Below are positions 17,203-48,631 of a stretch of DNA of 64,000 nt, in pieces. The notes beneath the pieces were generated by a model, which searched no databases, was not told the DNA's origin, and saw nothing but the letters and a program-made list of their open reading frames with translations. The stretch is from Flavobacteriales bacterium (lineage in GTDB: Bacteria; Bacteroidota; Bacteroidia; Flavobacteriales_D; Crocinitomicaceae). The stretch lies in assembly GCA_015665275.1 (NCBI GenBank), contig JADFAL010000039.1, forward strand, positions 1-64,000, read 5' to 3'. A program made the translations under genes and the position numbers. The number at the start of each line of letters is the position of its first letter. Within the stretch, counting starts at the first letter, position 1.

Positions 17203-17700
17203 TCACGCCCGATTTCCTAATTCGATTACCTCGAGATCGTGAATTCGGTCTTTTGTGATGCAGAATCGAAGTATGGTTTTGACTTGATGAAAGCCTTTGT
17301 AACCACAGGCGCCGGGGTTCATCCAGAGCATGTCATAATGTGGATCATTCCTGACGAGCAAAATGTGCGAGTGGCCACAAACAAATAGTTTGGGCGCTTC
17401 TTCTTGAAGGAGTTCGTGGGCTGGTTTTGCATATTTACCCGGTTTCCCAGCAATATGAGTTATTAATACATTCACATCCTCGCACTGAAACCGGATATGT
17501 TCTGGAAATTCTTGTCGAACATCGGCTGCATCGATATTTCCGTAAACACCCCTTGTAGGTTTGAATTCTCTCAATTGATCAATTACGTCAACGGTTCCCA
17601 CATCGCCTGCATGCCATACTTCATCAACGTCTTTAAAGTATTCGAAAATTTTCGGATCCAGATATCCATGTGTGTCAGATAATAAACCAATCCGTTTCAT
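17203..17700 (-). CDS. Metallophosphoesterase (YfcE/MJ0936 type)
   Basis: Calcineurin-like phosphodiesterase with all metal motifs: GLLSDTHGYLD at the N-terminus, HAGDVG, YGNIDAADVR, ITHIAGK, and CGHSHILL, then NPGACG. Substrate unknown; relatives hydrolyse small phosphodiesters. I choose the ATG at 17700 (MKRIGLLSDTH): it overlaps the crtYcd stop as ATGA and begins the fold directly, while the longer frame adds 17 unrelated residues. It is thus the last gene of the carotenoid operon by translational coupling, though a role in pigment formation is not implied. Confidence 0.88.
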   Translation of the reverse strand: MKRIGLLSDTHGYLDPKIFEYFKDVDEVWHAGDVGTVDVIDQLREFKPTRGVYGNIDAADVRQEFPEHIRFQCEDVNVLITHIAGKPGKYAKPAHELLQEEAPKLFVCGHSHILLVRNDPHYDMLWMNPGACGYKGFHQVKTILRFCITKDRIHDLEVIELGNRA

Positions 17701-18416
17701 GATGCCATAGATTCTACCTTCTGCGAAGCGAAACTCTTCACGCCTTTCCATCTCATGAGTTGTTCATGAATTAAAATAGTCCCTACAATTAGGGAGAATC
17801 CGTACATGGCGTCTTCCATGGGGATAGTTCCCATTCGTACATCAGAGAAATGTTCAGAATTGTACCAAACGATAGGGGAGTTGATCCAACTGCCAGTTAA
17901 GATTCCATTGATAATGAGGAATGGGATCAAACAAATAAGGTAGGAGATTCCTATTTGCGGTAGTTTTCTTTCGTTGAACCAGAAGTATAGGGTAATCACA
18001 GTAGCAATTATCGTTGTTAAGGTATACCAGCCGGAAGGGTTTTTACTGCTGAGGAAGATTAAATACCCTAAAATTGCAATTTGAACAGCAATATTAACCC
18101 AGCGCCAATTGACCTTTCGAAAGTAAAACTTACAGCATTCGTATACGAATACGCAGGCCATTGGTACAACCCAGAAGAAAAGGATTTCTTCAATTGGCAA
18201 TCCGAAAATGGAAACACCCACGAGATAATCTGGGTTGAATCCCCAAATACCATTTTCAGTGAAGATGATGTCCCAAATTATGAAGGGAATGGCGATGATG
18301 GTACTGGCTATGAACACATTTCCCCAAGACTTAACGTATCGAACTCTATTGTCAAAACTCAAGACAAACGGACAAAGTAGTGTAATGGCATCTAATATTA
18401 GGTACAGGCCCTTCAA
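17697..18416 (-). CDS. Lycopene beta-cyclase, fused CrtYcd type
   Basis: Membrane enzyme that cyclises lycopene ends to beta-ionone rings. The two repeats of the heterodimeric CrtYc/CrtYd cyclases are fused in one chain: the first has DIIFTENGIWGFNPDYLVG and LPIEEILFFWVVPMACVFVYE, the second SDVRMGTIPMEDAMYGFSLI and LIHEQLMRW. Six or more transmembrane helices. The start is uncertain: ATG at 18458 would overlap crtZ by 46 bp, while TTG at 18416 overlaps the crtZ stop as TTGA and gives MKGLYLILDAITLLCPF, which matches the usual start of this family, so I prefer it. Confidence 0.85.
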   Translation of the reverse strand: MKGLYLILDAITLLCPFVLSFDNRVRYVKSWGNVFIASTIIAIPFIIWDIIFTENGIWGFNPDYLVGVSIFGLPIEEILFFWVVPMACVFVYECCKFYFRKVNWRWVNIAVQIAILGYLIFLSSKNPSGWYTLTTIIATVITLYFWFNERKLPQIGISYLICLIPFLIINGILTGSWINSPIVWYNSEHFSDVRMGTIPMEDAMYGFSLIVGTILIHEQLMRWKGVKSFASQKVESMAS

Positions 18417-18853
18417 GATTTGAAGTATTTTAGTGGAACAAGGAGCATTCCAAAACATTCTCCATCTTCTTTGCCTTGCTTCTTGTGATGTACTTTGTGT
18501 GCCTTTCTAATTGCTTTGAAATATTTGTTCTGCGTCTTGTCAAACCACTTAAAGCGACGGTGTATAAGTACATCATGCACAAGGAAGTACACGACTCCAT
18601 ATACGGCAATTCCTGCTCCAAATCCGATAGAAAAATTAGCGCCATAGATTACTCCTAGCATAATACAAAGCCAAGATGGAACGGCAAAAATCATAAAGAA
18701 CAAATCGTTCTTTTGAAAAACATGACCTGTAGGTTTGTGATGGTCTTCATGCACCTTCCACAGAAAACCATGCATTAGGTATTTGTGTGCCGACCATGCA
18801 GCGCCCTCCATTAAAACAAAAGCCAATATCAATGCTGCGATAAATGCAATCAT
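18413..18853 (-). CDS. crtZ: Beta-carotene hydroxylase CrtZ
   Basis: Di-iron membrane hydroxylase that puts 3-OH on beta-rings. The four histidine clusters are complete: HKYLMH (23-28), HEDHH (35-39), HDVLIHRR (93-100) and HKVHH (119-123). Four hydrophobic stretches fit the fatty-acid-hydroxylase fold. Start ATG 18853 overlaps the cruF stop as ATGA; the 15 additional upstream codons of the longest frame do not belong. 146 residues, a little shorter than many CrtZ but with all ligands. Confidence 0.92.
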   Translation of the reverse strand: MIAFIAALILAFVLMEGAAWSAHKYLMHGFLWKVHEDHHKPTGHVFQKNDLFFMIFAVPSWLCIMLGVIYGANFSIGFGAGIAVYGVVYFLVHDVLIHRRFKWFDKTQNKYFKAIRKAHKVHHKKQGKEDGECFGMLLVPLKYFKS

Positions 18854-19464
18854 CCTGTGAAATTTAATAGTAAGAAAAAGACCAGCCAAATAAACCACAA
18901 TCCAGCTGCCGAATTGTTCTTAACACGTGTGTTAAACACGTATACCAATGCAAAAATAAAAGAGAATACAAACCAAGCAATGTAATTCTGAATTGGAATG
19001 TCTCCACCGCCCCAAGCCCAAAAATCATATTTGATAGCTACGGGTTCAATAAGTATGTCGAGTCCGGTACAAAGAATGGCTGCCAATAAGGCCTGAAGCC
19101 ATTTGTTCTTCACAATTCTTATGGCGAGTGATGAACTCGTAACAACCGTAGCGTACCAGTTCATTCCCATGACAATAGGAATTCCAAAAAGCGGAAGACC
19201 TAATGCTTCACCATACTGGTATTCACCGAATAAAACCCCCGTATGTACCCCGGATAATTCGGCAAGGTATCCTCCTAAGAAGATTATTATCAATGGGAAA
19301 AAGGCTCTTGGTTCTAGCTTCTCTGAGAAGAATACAACTGTTCCGCACAACCAAATATTCATGTACGTAAGCTTCGCGTTCTCTGCATCTTGGATAAATA
19401 AAATGTATCCAATGATGTGGAAGAGCAGCAAAAGCCAAATACCATATTTCTGGACTATACTCAT
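18850..19464 (-). CDS. cruF: Carotenoid 1,2-hydratase-type protein (CruF, DUF422)
   Basis: Polytopic membrane protein with about seven helices. GVLFGEYQYGEALGLPLFGIPIVMGMNWY and GLDILIEPVAIKYDFWAW are the CruF signature regions; the acidic residues are presumably catalytic. Known members add water to the psi end of carotenes (1-hydroxy end) in bacterioruberin, myxol and saproxanthin pathways. Partnering with CrtD nearby fits a 1'-hydroxy, 3',4'-desaturated end group. Overlaps crtZ by ATGA, and its start lies 4 bp inside the crtD reading frame end. Confidence 0.83.
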   Translation of the reverse strand: MSIVQKYGIWLLLLFHIIGYILFIQDAENAKLTYMNIWLCGTVVFFSEKLEPRAFFPLIIIFLGGYLAELSGVHTGVLFGEYQYGEALGLPLFGIPIVMGMNWYATVVTSSSLAIRIVKNKWLQALLAAILCTGLDILIEPVAIKYDFWAWGGGDIPIQNYIAWFVFSFIFALVYVFNTRVKNNSAAGLWFIWLVFFLLLNFTG

Positions 19465-20930
19465 GGAATCAGCTCACTTACAATTTTAGCGGAGCGCAAA
19501 ACCAACGGAATTCCTCCTCCGGGATGCACGGTGCCTCCACAGAAATATAGGTTTGGATATTTAGGATTGGTGTTACCATGTCGTTTCACCGAAGCCAATA
19601 AAGAATTTGAAGCAGGGCCATATAATGCTCCCATGTAACTTCCAGAATGCTCTTTGATTCGGTCGCAATCCCACCAGTCTTCGAACAAGATGTCTTCTCT
19701 AAGATCGAAGTCAAATTGTTTTTTGAGGCGTTCCGCAATCATGTTTTTCATCTGTTCACGATAAGCTTCGTTTGGCAATACTCCCGCCGGAACGTTAACC
19801 ATTGTGAACCAATTCTGTCCGCCTTCTGGGGCGTCTTCTTTATGCGCTACAGAACTAATGTGAATGTATACCGTTGGTTCATCTGCCAATCTTTTTTCAT
19901 CAAATAATTCTGAAAATTCTTTCTGATAATCTTCAGAGAAGAAAATATTGTGAACGCCGAATTCTTTGACGCCTTTTTCCATGGCCCAATAGAAAACAAG
20001 GGCAGAAGTACTGCGTTCAATTTTTCTCCAGCGGTTCTCCATTTTCGGATTCACCAAAACCTTATTGTAAAAAGTCATGTGATCGATGGCGCAAATAACG
20101 CGATCTGCAGAGACTTCTATATCACCTGAAATCGTATAGGTTTTATCTGATTGCGGGTGAACTTTGACTTCCGTGTTACACAGGATTTCTATTCCTATTT
20201 CGTTTGCGAGGGTGATGAGCGACTCTACAATTGCGCGCATTCCTCCAATTGGGAAATAAGCACCTTTATTAATTTCGACGTGAGAAATAGTACTGTACAG
20301 CCCAGACATTCTGTAAGGATTCGATCCAATGTATGTACCAAAACGATCGAATATTTTCACCATATATTCGCTAGAGAATCGACGTTCATTCAGCTTGTGT
20401 AGTGATTGTCGCACTTCTTTGCGAAGGAAATGTTTGTATTTAGTTGTGAGTTCTTTCTTAAATGCTTTTCTAGCCGTTGGACGCGGGTTCGAAATGAAGT
20501 AATCACCTACTTTTTCGAACAATTCATCACTTTCTTTTAGATAGGTATCGAATTCTTCCCGTCCTTTTGTTCCTGCAACCGCAGCAATTTGTTCACGGGT
20601 CTTTTCGTAATCGGAAGAAAGGGTGATGCTGCTATGATCTGGAAAGTAATAGGTACACGATTCGTCGAGCGGTCCGAAATTGAAATACTCACGCGGATTT
20701 TTGTTCCAAAGTTCGAAAAGCTTGTCAATGTTTGTTGGTTCCGTAAATACGGAGGGTCCTTTATCCCAGCGATAACCGTTCCACTCGAAATCATCTAGTT
20801 TTCCACCAGCTCTCGGGTTCTTTTCAATTATCAGGATTTTATCGAAACGCTTTTTCAGTCGAATGGCTGAGGCTAATCCACTTGCTCCTCCACCGACGAT
20901 AACGACGTCGTAATGATCAGATTTCGGCAT
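19461..20930 (-). CDS. crtD: 1-hydroxycarotenoid 3,4-desaturase CrtD
   Basis: FAD-dependent desaturase of the CrtI family. The Rossmann motif VVIVGGGASGLASAIRLKK is at the N-terminus. The C-terminal block SGSYMGALYGPASNSLLASV, then LYFCGGTVHPGGGIPLVLRSAKI, resembles CrtD more than CrtI, the other desaturase in the operon. Expected reaction: 3,4-desaturation of a 1-hydroxy end group made by CruF. I take ATG 20930 (MPKSDHYDVVIVGGG), which overlaps idi by 14 bp; the longest frame adds nine codons. Function distinguishing CrtD from CrtI is by motif comparison only. Confidence 0.85.
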   Translation of the reverse strand: MPKSDHYDVVIVGGGASGLASAIRLKKRFDKILIIEKNPRAGGKLDDFEWNGYRWDKGPSVFTEPTNIDKLFELWNKNPREYFNFGPLDESCTYYFPDHSSITLSSDYEKTREQIAAVAGTKGREEFDTYLKESDELFEKVGDYFISNPRPTARKAFKKELTTKYKHFLRKEVRQSLHKLNERRFSSEYMVKIFDRFGTYIGSNPYRMSGLYSTISHVEINKGAYFPIGGMRAIVESLITLANEIGIEILCNTEVKVHPQSDKTYTISGDIEVSADRVICAIDHMTFYNKVLVNPKMENRWRKIERSTSALVFYWAMEKGVKEFGVHNIFFSEDYQKEFSELFDEKRLADEPTVYIHISSVAHKEDAPEGGQNWFTMVNVPAGVLPNEAYREQMKNMIAERLKKQFDFDLREDILFEDWWDCDRIKEHSGSYMGALYGPASNSLLASVKRHGNTNPKYPNLYFCGGTVHPGGGIPLVLRSAKIVSELIP

Positions 20931-21441
20931 AATTTTGCGTTCGGTTGTGAACTTCATCGAAAACTATGCGGAACCACGCAGTATACTTCTCCGGATTCAC
21001 TTTCATATCTTCTTCGATTTCCTTCATGGACACATATTTCCACGCTGCTACTTCGTCGGGGTTGATTTCTGGCTCTCCATTGAATGTTCCAAATACTACA
21101 TGATCCAACTCGTGTTCCGTTAGGTCGTTGTCTAATTCTGCACGGTATACGAAATGAAATTGTGGTTGCATTTTCGCTTCTATGCCCATTTCTTCCATGA
21201 GTCTTCGGTTGGATGCTTCTAAAACACTTTCTCCCGCTCTTGGGTGACTACAACAAGTGTTGGTCCAAAGTCCGCCTGAGTGATATTTGGAATGTGCGCG
21301 TTGTTGAAGCAATAGCTCGTTTTGATCGTTAAAAAGGAAGATAGAAAATGCACGATGCAAAAGTGCTTTTTCATGCGCTTCCATCTTTTCCATCTGACCT
21401 ACTTCCTGATCGTTTTCGTCTACCAGAATTACGTATTCCAT
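20917..21441 (-). CDS. idi: Isopentenyl-diphosphate delta-isomerase type I
   Basis: Nudix-fold isomerase interconverting IPP and DMAPP, the building blocks of carotenoids. TNTCCSHP (61-67) carries the catalytic Cys 64; the Nudix helix reads EASNRRLMEEMGI, and HELDHVVFG supplies the acidic pair. 174 residues, standard. It sits between crtB and crtD in the operon, so its expression raises precursor flow together with the pigment enzymes. The end overlaps crtD by 14 bp. Confidence 0.95.
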   Translation of the reverse strand: MEYVILVDENDQEVGQMEKMEAHEKALLHRAFSIFLFNDQNELLLQQRAHSKYHSGGLWTNTCCSHPRAGESVLEASNRRLMEEMGIEAKMQPQFHFVYRAELDNDLTEHELDHVVFGTFNGEPEINPDEVAAWKYVSMKEIEEDMKVNPEKYTAWFRIVFDEVHNRTQNYAEI

Positions 21442-21445
21442 TTGC

Positions 21446-22285
21446 TTAGAGCAAGTTTATTTGATTTCGTACCATTGATTTTGCAAACACTACCATTTTA
21501 GCATTTTTTGGAATTCGAACACGTTCTTGGAGTAATTGCTGAGATGTTTTTTGTTTGATCTTGCGCAGCAACTTTGTATAGTACTTGTAACTCACGTATA
21601 CTCCAAATCGCGAAGATTTCGGTAGCATTTTAATTCCGATCAATGCTTCGTCGAATTCTTTTTGAATTTCATCTTCGATGCGCATTTTGTTTTCAACGCT
21701 TAACTCTCCAGAATGATCGATCCCAGGGAAGTACAATCGGCCTAACTCATGGTAATCTGCACTGTAATCTCGCAAGAAATTAATTTTTTGGAAAGCAGAA
21801 CCGAGTTTCATCGCATATGGTTTCAACTTTTGATATTCATCTTCATCGCCATAAACGAAGATCTTCAAACACATCAAGCCAACCACCTCGGCAGACCCGA
21901 GAATGTATTCTTCGTATGTTGTTTGCTCGTAATCGATAGGATTTAGATCCATTTCCATACTGTGAAGGAACTGATCAATCAGTTGGCGATCGATGTTGTA
22001 TTTGTTCACTGAAGCCTGAAATGAATTCAAGATTGGATTCAAAGAAATTCCTCGCTCTAAGGCTTTGTAGGTTTCCTCTTTAAATTCCGATAGGAGAACT
22101 TCTTTGTCATGATCGTGGAAAGTATCCACAATTTCATCTGCGAAACGTACGAATCCATAAATGGCATGCACATCATCACGAATGCGTTTGTCAAGTGCTC
22201 TTACGCCTGCGTAAAATGACGTGCTGTACTTTTTTGTGACACCACGGGATGCGTTGAAACAATAATCATCGTAAAGTTCTTTCAT
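21446..22285 (-). CDS. crtB: Phytoene synthase CrtB
   Basis: Joins two GGPP to phytoene, the first committed step. Both aspartate-rich motifs are present: D50-E-I-V-D54 in YGFVRFADEIVDTFHD and D173-Y-S-A-D177 in INFLRDYSADYHELGRLYFP. GVRALDKRIRDDVHAIYGF is also typical. 279 residues. Overlaps crtI by 4 bp (ATGA) and lies 4 bp from idi. No geranylgeranyl-diphosphate synthase gene is in the operon, so its substrate must come from elsewhere on the chromosome. Confidence 0.96.
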   Translation of the reverse strand: MKELYDDYCFNASRGVTKKYSTSFYAGVRALDKRIRDDVHAIYGFVRFADEIVDTFHDHDKEVLLSEFKEETYKALERGISLNPILNSFQASVNKYNIDRQLIDQFLHSMEMDLNPIDYEQTTYEEYILGSAEVVGLMCLKIFVYGDEDEYQKLKPYAMKLGSAFQKINFLRDYSADYHELGRLYFPGIDHSGELSVENKMRIEDEIQKEFDEALIGIKMLPKSSRFGVYVSYKYYTKLLRKIKQKTSQQLLQERVRIPKNAKMVVFAKSMVRNQINLL

Positions 22286-23745
22286 AACTCTTTCATTGCA
22301 AGGTTAGCGGCAATCTTCCCTGAAATCAAGGCAGGAGGAACACCAGGTCCCGGAACAGTTAACTGTCCACAGAAGTACATGTGTTTTAACTGCGATTTGA
22401 TTTTTGGTTTCAAATTTGCCGTTTGGTTGAGTGTGTTGGCGAGACCATATGCATTTCCCTTGTAGGCGTTGTATTCCGATTTGAAATCAGTAACGCAAAA
22501 GGATCTATTGAATATGATATCGTCCGAGATATCAGTTCCTGTATGCTCTTTAATTCTATCTAAAATTATGCGCAGGTACTTATCTCGAGTTTCGTTGTCG
22601 TCTTTTAAGTCTGGTGCTACAGGGACGAGAATAAATAAATTTTCTTTTCCTTCTGGTGCAACATTCTTGTCTGTTATTGATGGCGCGCAAACGTAAAAAA
22701 GCGGTTTCTCAGGCCATCCAGGATTGTCATAAATACGTTTACCATGCATTTTCAAATCCTCATCAAAGAATAAGTTGTGATGCTTCAATCCCGCAACCTT
22801 CTTGTCTATTCCAAGATAGAAAATTAAAGAGCTCGGTGCAAGTTTTCTTGAATCCCAGTAATTATTCGTGTATTTGCGGTATTTCTCAGAGATCAAGTTT
22901 TGTTCCGTGTGATGGTAATCTGCACCACTAATGACCGCGTCAAATTTATGTCTTTCTCCATTCGCCCAAATTGCGTCTGCATGACCGTCGACATCTTCGA
23001 TGCTTTCTACAGATGCGTTTAGATGAAATGTAACATTATTTGCTTCTCCAATTTTCTGTAAGGCTCTTGCCAGGGCGCTCATTCCGCCTTCCGGATACCA
23101 TGTGCCAAGTGAGAGGTCGGCATAATTCATCATGGTGTATAGCGACGGAATTTTATCTGGCATTGCTCCAAGAAAAAGCACAGGGAAAGTGAGGATACTT
23201 CGTGCTTTGTTGGATTTGAACCTTTTGTACACATCGCGCTCAACTGACTTGAAAACATCTAACTTCAATGCTTTTGTCAGTGCTTTGACTTTCAAAAGTT
23301 CTCCAATACTCAACCCTGGGTTTTCTAAGAATTCTTCTACCGCCACTTTATACTTGACTGCAGCATCTTTCAGAAATTTCTCCAATTTTTCACCTCCTTT
23401 TTCTTCGAAAGTGTCAAACAGGCCCTTGAGTTCTTCCATTTTGGCTGGAACATCCGTTTTCTCAACATTTTCCCAGAAAACTCTGTAAGATGGATCCAGT
23501 CGCGACAATTTGTAATAATCTTCACGATTTTCACCCAGTTCTTCGAACATGCGATCAATAAGTTCCGGCATCCAATACCAAGAAGGGCCCATATCGAACG
23601 TGAAACCGTCTTTCTGAAACGTTTGTGAACGACCACCGACTTGGCTGTTTTTTTCAAATACAGTCACTTGGTAGCCTGACTTACCTAATTTGCAAGCCGC
23701 ATAAAGACTGGATAAACCAGCTCCTATAATGCCAATTTGTTTCAT
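22282..23745 (-). CDS. crtI: Phytoene desaturase CrtI
   Basis: First gene of the operon. FAD-binding IGIIGAGLSSLYAACKLGKSG at the start; FDMGPSWYWMPELIDRMF; and the C-terminal ADFK-type block VTDFKSEYNAYKGNAYGLANT, then YFCGQLTVPGPGVPPALISGK. These segments match flavobacterial CrtI, which turns phytoene to lycopene in four desaturations. 487 residues, usual length. Its promoter (TATATTTG at 23763-23770) lies next to a large inverted repeat shared with the promoter of the B12-type regulator. Confidence 0.94.
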   Translation of the reverse strand: MKQIGIIGAGLSSLYAACKLGKSGYQVTVFEKNSQVGGRSQTFQKDGFTFDMGPSWYWMPELIDRMFEELGENREDYYKLSRLDPSYRVFWENVEKTDVPAKMEELKGLFDTFEEKGGEKLEKFLKDAAVKYKVAVEEFLENPGLSIGELLKVKALTKALKLDVFKSVERDVYKRFKSNKARSILTFPVLFLGAMPDKIPSLYTMMNYADLSLGTWYPEGGMSALARALQKIGEANNVTFHLNASVESIEDVDGHADAIWANGERHKFDAVISGADYHHTEQNLISEKYRKYTNNYWDSRKLAPSSLIFYLGIDKKVAGLKHHNLFFDEDLKMHGKRIYDNPGWPEKPLFYVCAPSITDKNVAPEGKENLFILVPVAPDLKDDNETRDKYLRIILDRIKEHTGTDISDDIIFNRSFCVTDFKSEYNAYKGNAYGLANTLNQTANLKPKIKSQLKHMYFCGQLTVPGPGVPPALISGKIAANLAMKEL

Positions 23746-23762: not shown

Positions 23763-23770
23763 CAAATATA
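23763..23770 (-). promoter_or_regulatory. Promoter -7 element of the carotenoid operon
   Basis: Read on the minus strand this is TATATTTG, exact TAnnTTTG. It lies 17 bp before the crtI ATG. The expected -33 position about 19 bp further upstream falls in the left arm of the inverted repeat 23783-23819. Confidence 0.65.
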
Positions 23771-23782
23771 AAAGAAAAAACG

Positions 23783-23819
23783 TTTTGTTTAACTTTTAGT
23801 GGCTAAAAGTTAAACAAAA
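23783..23819. promoter_or_regulatory. 37-bp perfect inverted repeat, candidate operator or terminator
   Basis: TTTTGTTTAACTTTTAG (23783-23799), TGG, CTAAAAGTTAAACAAAA (23803-23819): 17-bp arms without mismatch. It covers the expected -33 region of the crtI promoter and the stop codon of the regulator gene. Contained 10-mers GTTTAACTTT and TTAAACAAAA occur again, 12 bp apart instead of 13, in the regulator's own promoter (24692-24723). On the regulator's strand the repeat is followed by CGTTTTTTCTTTT, so it could also act as a terminator; its low GC content argues for weak termination. Confidence 0.7.
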
Positions 23820-24691
23820 AGTGCTTTTAGGTCCTTTTCGGACTCTATTACTCGCACTCCAGAGGCTAATTTGTTCTTGTATAATGAACTCATGTTGCCG
23901 CTAAGGACTAGGCTCTTGTGAGGAATAACCTTTTCGATTCCTTTCACGATCGTTTCAAACTCCTTTTCAGAAGACTTGGCAATTAAGCTTGTTAATGTTA
24001 AATCCGGCTTAATTTGATCGTAAGAAATTTTTAAATCCTCAAAGGGAACGCTTATTCCAAGGTAGTATACTTGCCAGCCTTCACGCTTGAACATGTATTG
24101 GTATATCAAAAGGCTCAACTCGTGCTCTTCATTTGGAGGAAGGAACATCAAAATCTTCTTCTTGGTCTTCACCTTAACGTCCAACGACGAAATTCTAGAA
24201 AGAATGAATCCACGATAGATGTTGGAAAAGAAATGTTCGTGTCCTACAGAAAGAGAGCTCAATTGCCAAAGTTCTCCCATTTTCGTTAGGAGCGGCACAA
24301 TTGTTCTAGCGAAGAGATGTTCGATGCCATGCTCCTCATAGATTCTTGAAAGGATTCCGTGGATTTTCTCTTCATCCAGCTCGATAATGCTTAACAAAAG
24401 CACATCTACTTCATCATCGTCCCATTTGCGCTCGTTGAGAATGATCTCCTTGGACTTCTCCAAGATTTCTTCATCAGACAAGGCCGCAATCTTTGAGATT
24501 TTTAATCCTTTGGTGTATAATAAATTGACATTCAGGAGCTTTTTCAAGTCCTGATCTTCGTAATAGCGTATGTTGGTGTCGGTTCGTTTGGGGGATAAAA
24601 GCCCATAGCGCTGCTCCCATATTCGAATGGTATGCGCCTTGATATCAGTAAGGTTTTCAAGGTCTTTGATGGAATACTGACTTTTTTTCAT
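23810..24691 (-). CDS. MerR-type regulator with B12-binding domain (CarH/LitR-like)
   Basis: An N-terminal MerR helix-turn-helix (YSIKDLENLTDIKAHTIRIW, then EQRYGLLSPKRT) is followed by a helical and a Rossmann cobalamin-binding domain. The Trp-x9-Glu-His signature of CarH is seen as W142 and E152-H153, and H190 in PPNEEHELS fits the lower axial ligand position. CarH tetramers with adenosylcobalamin repress carotenoid genes in the dark and fall apart in light. The residue after W142 is Gln; Thermus CarH has a His there (His132) that binds cobalt after illumination. The E-x-H-x-x-G motif ends in Ser rather than Gly. Start ATG 24691 replaces a longer frame with 66 unrelated codons. Directly upstream of and codirectional with crtI. 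Confidence 0.9.
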   Translation of the reverse strand: MKKSQYSIKDLENLTDIKAHTIRIWEQRYGLLSPKRTDTNIRYYEDQDLKKLLNVNLLYTKGLKISKIAALSDEEILEKSKEIILNERKWDDDEVDVLLLSIIELDEEKIHGILSRIYEEHGIEHLFARTIVPLLTKMGELWQLSSLSVGHEHFFSNIYRGFILSRISSLDVKVKTKKKILMFLPPNEEHELSLLIYQYMFKREGWQVYYLGISVPFEDLKISYDQIKPDLTLTSLIAKSSEKEFETIVKGIEKVIPHKSLVLSGNMSSLYKNKLASGVRVIESEKDLKALFV

Positions 24692-24726
24692 GTTTAACTT
24701 TACGACTCGTTTATTAAACAAAATTA
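24692..24726 (-). promoter_or_regulatory. Regulator promoter with candidate self-operator
   Basis: On the minus strand the -7 element is TAATTTTG (24719-24726), with TTGG 19 bp upstream (24746-24749). The site GTTTAACTTT (24692-24701), 12 bp, TTAAACAAAA (24714-24723) covers the -7 element and the region up to the ATG. Both 10-mers also occur in the inverted repeat upstream of crtI. Autoregulation by the product is the simplest reading. Confidence 0.65.
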
Positions 24727-24780: not shown

Positions 24781-25821
24781 GTGGATAACCCAAATTTAGA
24801 CCGTTGGTTAGAGAAGCGAAAGGCTCGCATGAAGGGCCTATCTTCGGATGCTTTGTTCGACCAAATATTGGAAGGCGACATACAGGCATTAAGTGCAGCC
24901 ATTACTCTAGTGGAAAGCAAGAATGACGGGCATTCCAAGGAGGCACAACAATTAATTCAGCAGTGTTTGCCGCACTCAGGAAATGCCATTCGAGTAGGTA
25001 TTACTGGGGTTCCTGGAGTGGGAAAAAGTAGCTTTATTGAAGCCTTCGGAAAGGTGCTTACAGATTGTGGAAAAAAGGTTGCAGTTTTGGCAATTGACCC
25101 TTCAAGTAGCATTTCTGGTGGCAGTATTTTGGGAGATAAGACCCGAATGGCCAACTTGGTAACCAATGAAAATGTGTTCATTAGGCCCTCAGCGGCAGGA
25201 GAAACATTGGGAGGCGTGGCCAGAAAAACCCGAGAATCTGTAATCCTTTGCGAAGCAGCTGGGTTTGATATTATTCTCATTGAGACGGTTGGTGTTGGAC
25301 AATCGGAAACGGTAGTGAAGTCCATGGTTGATTTCTTTCTGCTGTTGATGCTTTCAGGAGCAGGTGACGAATTGCAAGGGATCAAGAAGGGGATTATGGA
25401 AATGGCAGACGCCCTCGTGATTACGAAGGCGGATGGAGATAACGTGCGTGCCGCGAATCGTGCAAGCCAGGAATACCGTAATGCAATGCATTTGTTTCCT
25501 CCCAATGAAAATGAGTGGATTCCTCAGGTATTTACCTGTAGCGCATTTGAGGGGACGAATGTAGCGCGCGTATTTGAAGTAATTCAATCGTTTGAGAACC
25601 AAGTAGGCATTAACGGCTCGTTTGAGAAGAACCGAAGAGAACAAGATAAGAAGTGGTTGCGCGAAACATTGAACGAAATGTTGCTTCGTGCATTCTACAA
25701 CAACGAATATTTAGGCAAGGCGTTTCAAGAAGCCGAAGAACAAATGGCAAAAGGGGAGGCGACTTCCTTTCAAGCGGCAGAACAGCTGTTCGAATTATAC
25801 AGAAAGCATGGAAAAATTTAA
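24781..25821 (+). CDS. meaB: Methylmalonyl-CoA mutase-associated GTPase MeaB
   Basis: G3E-family GTPase that protects and reloads adenosylcobalamin-dependent methylmalonyl-CoA mutase. P-loop GVPGVGKSS (76-84); switch region LAIDPSSSISGGSILGDKTRM; base-recognition TKADGDN; and DFFLLLMLSGAGDELQGIKKGIMEMAD, typical of MeaB. 346 residues. No ATG is available in the right place; GTG 24781 is chosen because the -7 element ends just before it. Its mutase is not in the window. It is divergent from the B12-binding regulator, so both sides of this promoter region depend on the same cofactor. Overlaps the S4 gene by 14 bp. Confidence 0.93.
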   Translation: MDNPNLDRWLEKRKARMKGLSSDALFDQILEGDIQALSAAITLVESKNDGHSKEAQQLIQQCLPHSGNAIRVGITGVPGVGKSSFIEAFGKVLTDCGKKVAVLAIDPSSSISGGSILGDKTRMANLVTNENVFIRPSAAGETLGGVARKTRESVILCEAAGFDIILIETVGVGQSETVVKSMVDFFLLLMLSGAGDELQGIKKGIMEMADALVITKADGDNVRAANRASQEYRNAMHLFPPNENEWIPQVFTCSAFEGTNVARVFEVIQSFENQVGINGSFEKNRREQDKKWLRETLNEMLLRAFYNNEYLGKAFQEAEEQMAKGEATSFQAAEQLFELYRKHGKI

Positions 25822-48585: not shown

Positions 48586-48631
48586 GAAGGTTGAAAGTGG
48601 AAAGTAGGACTTCTTTCCACTTTCAACCTTC
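48586..48631. repeat. Perfect 19-bp inverted repeat with 8-nt loop
   Basis: GAAGGTTGAAAGTGGAAAG (48586-48604), 8-base loop, CTTTCCACTTTCAACCTTC (48613-48631). It lies between divergently transcribed sigma and T9SS cargo genes, so it cannot be a terminator of either. Known dispersed hairpins of Bacteroidota genomes look like this; a regulatory binding site is the alternative. Confidence 0.75.

Follow-up and report, generated by a model that had tools for sequence, protein, structure and literature searches.

RESULTS

A motif shared by a regulator gene and a pigment operon

Two neighbouring promoters, that of a gene for a CarH-like regulator and that of a carotenoid operon, carry the same pair of short sequences, and this raises the question whether one operator class serves both self-control and pigment control, and how far such an operator extends beyond this locus. 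The locus lies in a stretch of 64,000 nt of a Flavobacteriales genome (hereafter the window). On the minus strand the gene of a MerR-B12 regulator (23810–24691; 293 aa, with a MerR DNA-binding domain, a B12-binding helical bundle and a Rossmann domain as judged by Pfam, PDB sequence match, fold match and NCBIfam) is followed after 64 bp by crtI and then by the rest of the pigment operon up to the lycopene cyclase gene. The first gene of this operon encodes a crtI-type phytoene desaturase (22282–23745; NCBIfam CrtID above cut-off). Downstream, on the same strand, lie a gene of the phytoene/squalene synthase family (crtB, 21446–22285; Pfam), a gene for a NUDIX protein that is probably an isopentenyl-diphosphate isomerase (20917–21441; Pfam), a second, CrtD-like desaturase gene (19461–20957; crtI_fam above cut-off, the CrtD models below theirs), a gene for a carotenoid biosynthesis protein (Caroten_synth, 18850–19464; Pfam), one for a 161-aa protein that resembles CrtZ by eye only and has no family match above cut-off (18413–18898), and the lycopene cyclase gene (17697–18458; Pfam). 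The divergent neighbour of the regulator gene is a meaB-type GTPase gene at 24781–25821.

Rechecking the sequence, we found the inverted repeat at 23783–23819 and the second copy of its motif with exactly the positions and letters given in the original prediction. The repeat had been described as a perfect one of 37 bp; its two 17-bp arms are indeed perfect, but they enclose a 3-nt centre, and the description is slightly overstated because only 34 of the 37 positions are palindromic. The decamers GTTTAACTTT and TTAAACAAAA occur at 23787–23796 and 23810–23819 with a gap of 13 bp and again at 24692–24701 and 24714–24723 with a gap of 12 bp. That this spaced pair exceeds chance was confirmed by three matches in the window (the palindrome being counted on both strands) vs 0 in 100 dinucleotide shuffles. 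It is, however, not limited to the two promoters as had been supposed: a scan of the 3.64-Mb assembly for the exact pair returned one further place, with 0 matches for the backward control, and this third exact copy (G000:C28:47436–47467) is located upstream of a photolyase operon. Elsewhere in the window, at 48586–48631, there is a perfect inverted repeat with 19-bp arms and an 8-nt loop, which is longer than the one at 23783–23819.

By comparing the copies we observed that the conserved unit is TTGTTTAAC-N14-GTTAAACAA (N15 at crtI) rather than two decamers. The predicted crtI operator (23783–23819, core 23785–23817, N15 spacer) lies upstream of crtI and covers the last codons and the stop codon of the regulator gene. 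The regulator's own predicted operator (24690–24721, N14 spacer) has two mismatches to the core and reaches from a −7-like element as far as the start codon of the regulator; the promoter of the meaB-type gene could have this operator in common with the regulator. The half-sites are inverted and stand 24 bp apart from centre to centre, and each contains TAAACA, which fits the CarH element TnnACA. A nearly A/T-only stretch is found in each half at positions 11–13 (121 sites), and the N16 version of the pattern stays at background level (3 forward vs 5 control). The flavobacterial promoter consensus is described as TTG/TAnnTTTG (PMC3587595). On the minus strand −7-like elements are present in front of both genes, TATATTTG at 23763–23770 for crtI and TAATTTTG at 24719–24726 for the regulator, where the element overlaps the operator. 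Here the TAnnTTTG element has its TTTG in common with the outer half-site, an arrangement observed for 36 of 242 oriented sites (raw count) that would be suited to repression by occlusion. The −7 element of crtI is located outside the operator, and the operator covers the expected −33 region.

A competing reading, already raised with the original prediction, is that the repeat at 23783–23819 serves, alone or in addition, as intrinsic terminator of the regulator mRNA, the promoter match being secondary. The crtI copy does have the form of a predicted intrinsic terminator, with a 17-bp stem, a 3-nt loop and then CGTTTTTTCT on the regulator strand; the hairpin is strong (−16.6 kcal/mol, z −7.6) and is retained in the near relative L008 (−13.0 kcal/mol, z −2.7), where the operator core is matched at 18 of 18 positions with an N15 spacer. 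However, the stem contains only three G–C pairs, and in L007, the second near relative, the fold is weak (−6.8 kcal/mol, z −1.4) although the core still matches at 16 of 18 positions (N14). The counterpart of the regulator operator is present in L007, L008 and L009. Moreover, the other copies of the motif sit upstream of genes, which termination of the regulator mRNA cannot account for, and pairing within the N14 spacer is near chance (2.37 of 7 vs 2.13 expected). We reject a terminator-only reading because of this near-chance pairing and the weak fold of L007. As the strong hairpin is followed by a T-rich run, the crtI copy may have a second role as terminator, but a reading in which termination comes first and the promoter match second appears doubtful to us.

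Predicted operator sites in the genome

With up to two mismatches allowed, eight N14 sites and the crtI N15 site were found in the same genome, which makes nine sites at eight places, and all nine lie close upstream of predicted target genes or overlap a gene start. In addition to the regulator gene itself and crtI, the places are the photolyase operon on C28, where the genes behind the site are one that weakly resembles polyketide cyclases (E 0.048), tspO and one for a DNA photolyase; a PTPS-folE-flavin reductase cluster; an SDR-DUF2805-photolyase cluster; the gene of a SOUL heme protein; that of a FAS1 protein, with two sites; and a TetR-ABC1 kinase pair. Self-control and pigment control as the predicted scope are kept, but proved too narrow, as photolyase-type, pterin, SOUL and FAS1 genes have to be added in this genome and proteorhodopsin across the order (see below). 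A cobalamin adenosyltransferase family gene is also present in the genome. In front of the FAS1 protein gene we noticed three near-matches in a row (L065, G000:C40:16603–16760).

Up to three mismatches the counts approach those of the backward control (14 vs 10 for N14, 6 vs 7 for N15). One such site, 79 bp in front of a proteorhodopsin-blh pair, is a weak candidate if taken by itself. Another covers the start codon of dxs (L069, 3990–4021), which stands for the first step of isoprenoid precursor synthesis, and may be due to chance; further ones, at a TonB-type receptor gene and at a gene beside a BlaI-like regulator, may be background. The three-mismatch matches inspected comprise all except five (C35 at N14 and most of the N15 list).

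Predicted operator and regulator across relatives

Next, we compared 149 related genomes. The regulator was found in 119 of them (E 1e-20) and a site with at most one mismatch in 78, with 193 sites in total vs 11 for the backward control. Sites were present in 77 of the 119 genomes with the regulator vs 1 of the 30 without it (Fisher p=3.4e-10, kinship ignored); the genome counts are not independent, since several genomes belong to the same genus. The single exception (G002, 83% complete) contains six sites and shows no more than a weak match of 79 residues to the regulator. In 42 of the 119 regulator-bearing genomes no site with at most one mismatch was detected. For the regulator loci we used 73 distinct proteins from 77 loci instead of the 119 genomes, duplicates (including L041 and L043) being taken out of the locus count. 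At 55 of these 73 loci a site with a score of 15 or more of 18 is present beside the gene, compared to 0 of 146 reversed control windows, while 18 loci show no such site. By spacer, the sites at regulator loci divide into 61 N14, 7 N15 and 2 N13.

These figures bear on the idea that Bacteroidota promoters contain the motif as a generic AT-rich element. It is A+T-rich and overlaps the TAnnTTTG −7 element in part of the sites, as such an element might; but 29 of the 30 regulator-free genomes are without a site at up to one mismatch, the N14 spacing is strict, and 193 sites stand against 11 controls; we give this idea almost no credence. The motif is real and, as far as genome comparison can tell, behaves as the operator of a conserved regulatory network. 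The genome-wide and cross-genome comparisons likewise support the proposal of one putative operator class for self-control and pigment control.

We also looked at loci returned for the pattern alone. Among these, 25 of 30 contain a gene homologous to the regulator, to a crt gene or to a target from the genome of the window (a raw count, in which SDR and TetR represent large families). The first gene past the site is sigma-factor-like in several other genera, and a crtI homologue is contained in the same 3-kb locus; the one that was scanned (L099) encodes an ECF-type sigma factor. Tandem operator pairs were seen 64–65 bp apart in L017, L026, L020, L033 and L042 and 34–35 bp apart in L090 and L098, and several tandem pairs precede a sigma-factor-like gene near crtI.

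As an operator site precedes the TetR-kinase genes, a co-regulated TetR protein could be considered as the binding factor in place of the CarH-like regulator. TetR operators are palindromic, and sites of the motif occur somewhat more often in genomes that have this TetR (30 of 45) than in those that lack it (48 of 104). On the other hand, 48 of the 78 motif-bearing genomes have no match to it (E 1e-10), and these hold 99 of the 193 sites, whereas 77 of the 78 have the CarH-like regulator. We therefore reject TetR as the binding factor, a role that we consider very improbable, and continue with the CarH-like regulator as the candidate.

The CarH-like regulator

The protein had been described as a CarH-like B12 sensor. 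In Pfam it matches PF13411 with 56.3 bits and PF02607 with 27.8 bits (cut-off 23), and PF02310, the model for the Rossmann B12-binding domain, with 21.5 bits, which is under the cut-off of 32.1. The best PDB sequence matches are 3whp (E 4.2e-17), deposited as a probable transcriptional regulator, and Thermus CarH 5c8d (5e-17); where the two are aligned, their printed sequences agree. The AlphaFold model (pLDDT 87, 8 sequences) has chains of TtCarH as its top PDB fold matches (E 1.6e-15), and the predicted model shows the CarH fold. The B12 domain alone superimposes on TtCarH with about 3 Å rmsd and the whole chains with 15–20 Å, from which we conclude that the arrangement of the domains is different or not fixed. 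The best NCBIfam match is the CarH equivalog, at 89.9 bits vs a cut-off of 400; since this is far below the cut-off, we name the protein CarH-like instead of classing it as CarH.

At the residue level much of the CarH signature is conserved. In the RxWExRY helix R, W, E and R are kept in all 73 relatives and Y in 71; the Wx9EH motif is intact in our protein, with W, E and H in 72, 73 and 72 of the 73 relatives; and 72–73 of 73 retain W131, E141, H142 and H177 of the pocket. W131 and E141 are described as contacting the adenosyl group in Thermus CarH (PMC10442372). The B12-binding motif was scored on its D/ExHx2G/P part, leaving out the later SxT/V and GG parts: ExH is present and its His is found in 73 of 73 relatives, while the G/P position is S in our protein and G or P in 32 of 73. 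A light-response signature given for SignatureFinder consists of GxxW, EH, GxxH and GxxxP (PMC11796333); GxxW, EH and GxxxP are present, and GxxH reads NxxH, with that G in 18 of the 73 relatives.

Thus the fold and pocket residues agree with the description as a CarH-like B12 sensor, but the light-state ligand does not: the His at H132 is Q in our protein and is replaced in 72 of 73 relatives, being kept in one. H132 is described as the upper light-state ligand in many but not all CarH proteins (PMC9304148), and H132A TtCarH as mostly staying tetrameric after light, an earlier report having said that it disassembles (PMC10442372). From the absence of H132 and the behaviour of the H132A protein it follows that this branch either disassembles by another route or is no classical photoreceptor, and because this ligand is absent, light sensing by the regulator is something that we infer.

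The second possibility leads to a reading in which the protein senses AdoCbl or redox state instead of light, as a repressor that responds to B12 and in which the CarH photocycle was lost together with H132. It would fit the replacement of this residue in almost all relatives, the poor light response reported for H132A CarH (PMC10442372) and the divergent meaB-type neighbour, which is named for its association with methylmalonyl-CoA mutase. Yet the adenosyl-contacting W131 and E141 are kept, as is H142, and the predicted targets include many genes related to light (photolyases, carotenoids, rhodopsin). We regard a sensor of this kind as unlikely and retain light as the probable signal.

Predicted operators upstream of proteorhodopsin genes

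In order to see how far the operator extends to rhodopsins, we analyzed PF01036 matches, which occur in 55 of the 149 relatives and are above the cut-off in 52. The rhodopsin set consists of 50 of 61 matches; most of the other 11 are fragments or fall short of the cut-off, but one is full-length (G116:C217). Two loci were dropped, L139, which has no upstream sequence, and L151, which is identical to L124, leaving 48 usable upstream regions. The identity of the upstream regions of L124 and L151, which come from genomes of different families (G121 and G055), points to contamination or else to a very recent transfer.

At N14, 27 of the 48 regions contain a site that scores 15 or more of 18, and at N15 four do; every other spacing from 8 to 20 gives 0–1, and in 100 shuffle rounds at N14 the mean was 0.08 and the maximum 1. 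Setting aside two sodium pumps leaves 46 proton pumps, including the one, from the genome of the window, that gave rise to the hypothesis. Among the proton-pump rhodopsin genes examined from the order, 29 of 46 carry the operator upstream at N14 or N15 with a score of at least 15 of 18 (28 of 45 without that genome's own gene), which is a new observation; 34 of 46 score at least 14, and 17 of 46 score below 15. Two rhodopsin-bearing genomes have no detected regulator, and their upstream regions score 11 (G134, 99% complete) and 16 (G002, 83% complete).

The two sodium-pump genes score 9 and 11, so that none of two in the order set carries the operator, nor does any of nine in a phylum-wide set. 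Sodium pumps are a weak control, because three of the 11 genomes belong to the class and eight lie outside it, where the proton pumps examined lack the operator too. The phylum-wide draw comprised 28 new loci from 54 genomes with a match, and five of the 28 gave no rhodopsin ORF. In this draw the operator was found for four of five proton pumps of the same class (G234, G364, G340 and G485, not G261) and for 0 of 17 rhodopsins outside the class.

DISCUSSION

The motif with its genome-wide set, its conservation and its spacing specificity was obtained by computation, as were the co-occurrence with the regulator and the CarH-like fold. On the strength of these comparisons, we think it likely that the crtI and regulator sites are copies of one operator, at which the AdoCbl-bound MerR-B12 regulator would repress in the dark and from which it would be released by light, and that they belong to a photoprotection regulon that in many Bacteroidia would include proteorhodopsin. 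In this model the regulator would bind the TTGTTTAAC-N14/15-GTTAAACAA sites on both sides of its own gene, with AdoCbl as the probable cofactor, repression as the probable sign and light as the presumed signal; that AdoCbl is bound, that repression takes place in the dark and that light brings about release is carried over from what is known of the family. In the dark, the AdoCbl-bound protein would most likely oligomerise, occupy the operator and block the −33 or −7 elements. In the light, the Co–C bond would be cleaved and the protein would leave the operator, and this would derepress pigment synthesis, photorepair and the regulator's own gene, together with the proteorhodopsin operon in many Bacteroidia.

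Of the systems closest to ours, CarH of Thermus thermophilus, Bacillus megaterium and Myxococcus (class I LitR) is alike in its MerR and B12 domains, the residues W131, E141, H142 and H177, the linkage to crt genes and TnnACA inside the half-site. However, known CarH sites are described as tandem 11-bp direct repeats with TnnACA (PMC9304148, PMC8156234), whereas the half-sites reported here are inverted around a 14-bp spacer; further differences are the missing H132 in 72 of 73 relatives, the score far below the NCBIfam CarH cut-off and predicted targets that include proteorhodopsin. Class II LitR (PplR) of Pseudomonas putida resembles our system in its targets, which are given as photolyase, folE, a cryptochrome-like gene and the regulator itself (PMC9758184). 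Unlike our system, it is described as retaining one of two B12-binding domains and as working with a LOV protein in P. mendocina, and the list of targets described there contains no rhodopsin or carotenoid genes (PMC9758184). In Chryseobacterium lacus (Flavobacteriaceae) crt genes are light-induced, but neither car nor lit operon genes are reported for it and the authors do not assign a regulator (PMC7064467). Bizionia MliR was set aside as a relative going by its description, which presents it as a regulator of iron homeostasis and mentions no B12 domain (PMC9478572).

How proteorhodopsin expression is controlled in flavobacteria was stated to be unresolved in 2013, and constitutive expression of the gene is described for Dokdonia PRO95 (PMC3587595). 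Our literature search returned no paper combining proteorhodopsin, CarH and Bacteroidetes, and among the matches listed, as judged by titles and the beginnings of abstracts and with subscription papers mostly outside the search, none proposes a regulator of the CarH/LitR type for proteorhodopsin. With slightly better than even confidence, we propose that a CarH-like B12 regulator without H132 and with a palindromic operator is the light switch of proteorhodopsin in the class Bacteroidia, and that rhodopsin, the pathway to the retinal precursor and photorepair form one regulon. Our finding supplies a candidate regulator of proteorhodopsin together with a DNA sequence for the putative operator and a list of predicted targets. 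It also raises a question about the protein, namely how a CarH-like sensor might work without the histidine that was reported to be necessary for light-driven disassembly of Thermus CarH. If the proposal is true, a major group of aquatic bacteria would have its light-driven energy gain linked to the supply of vitamin B12.
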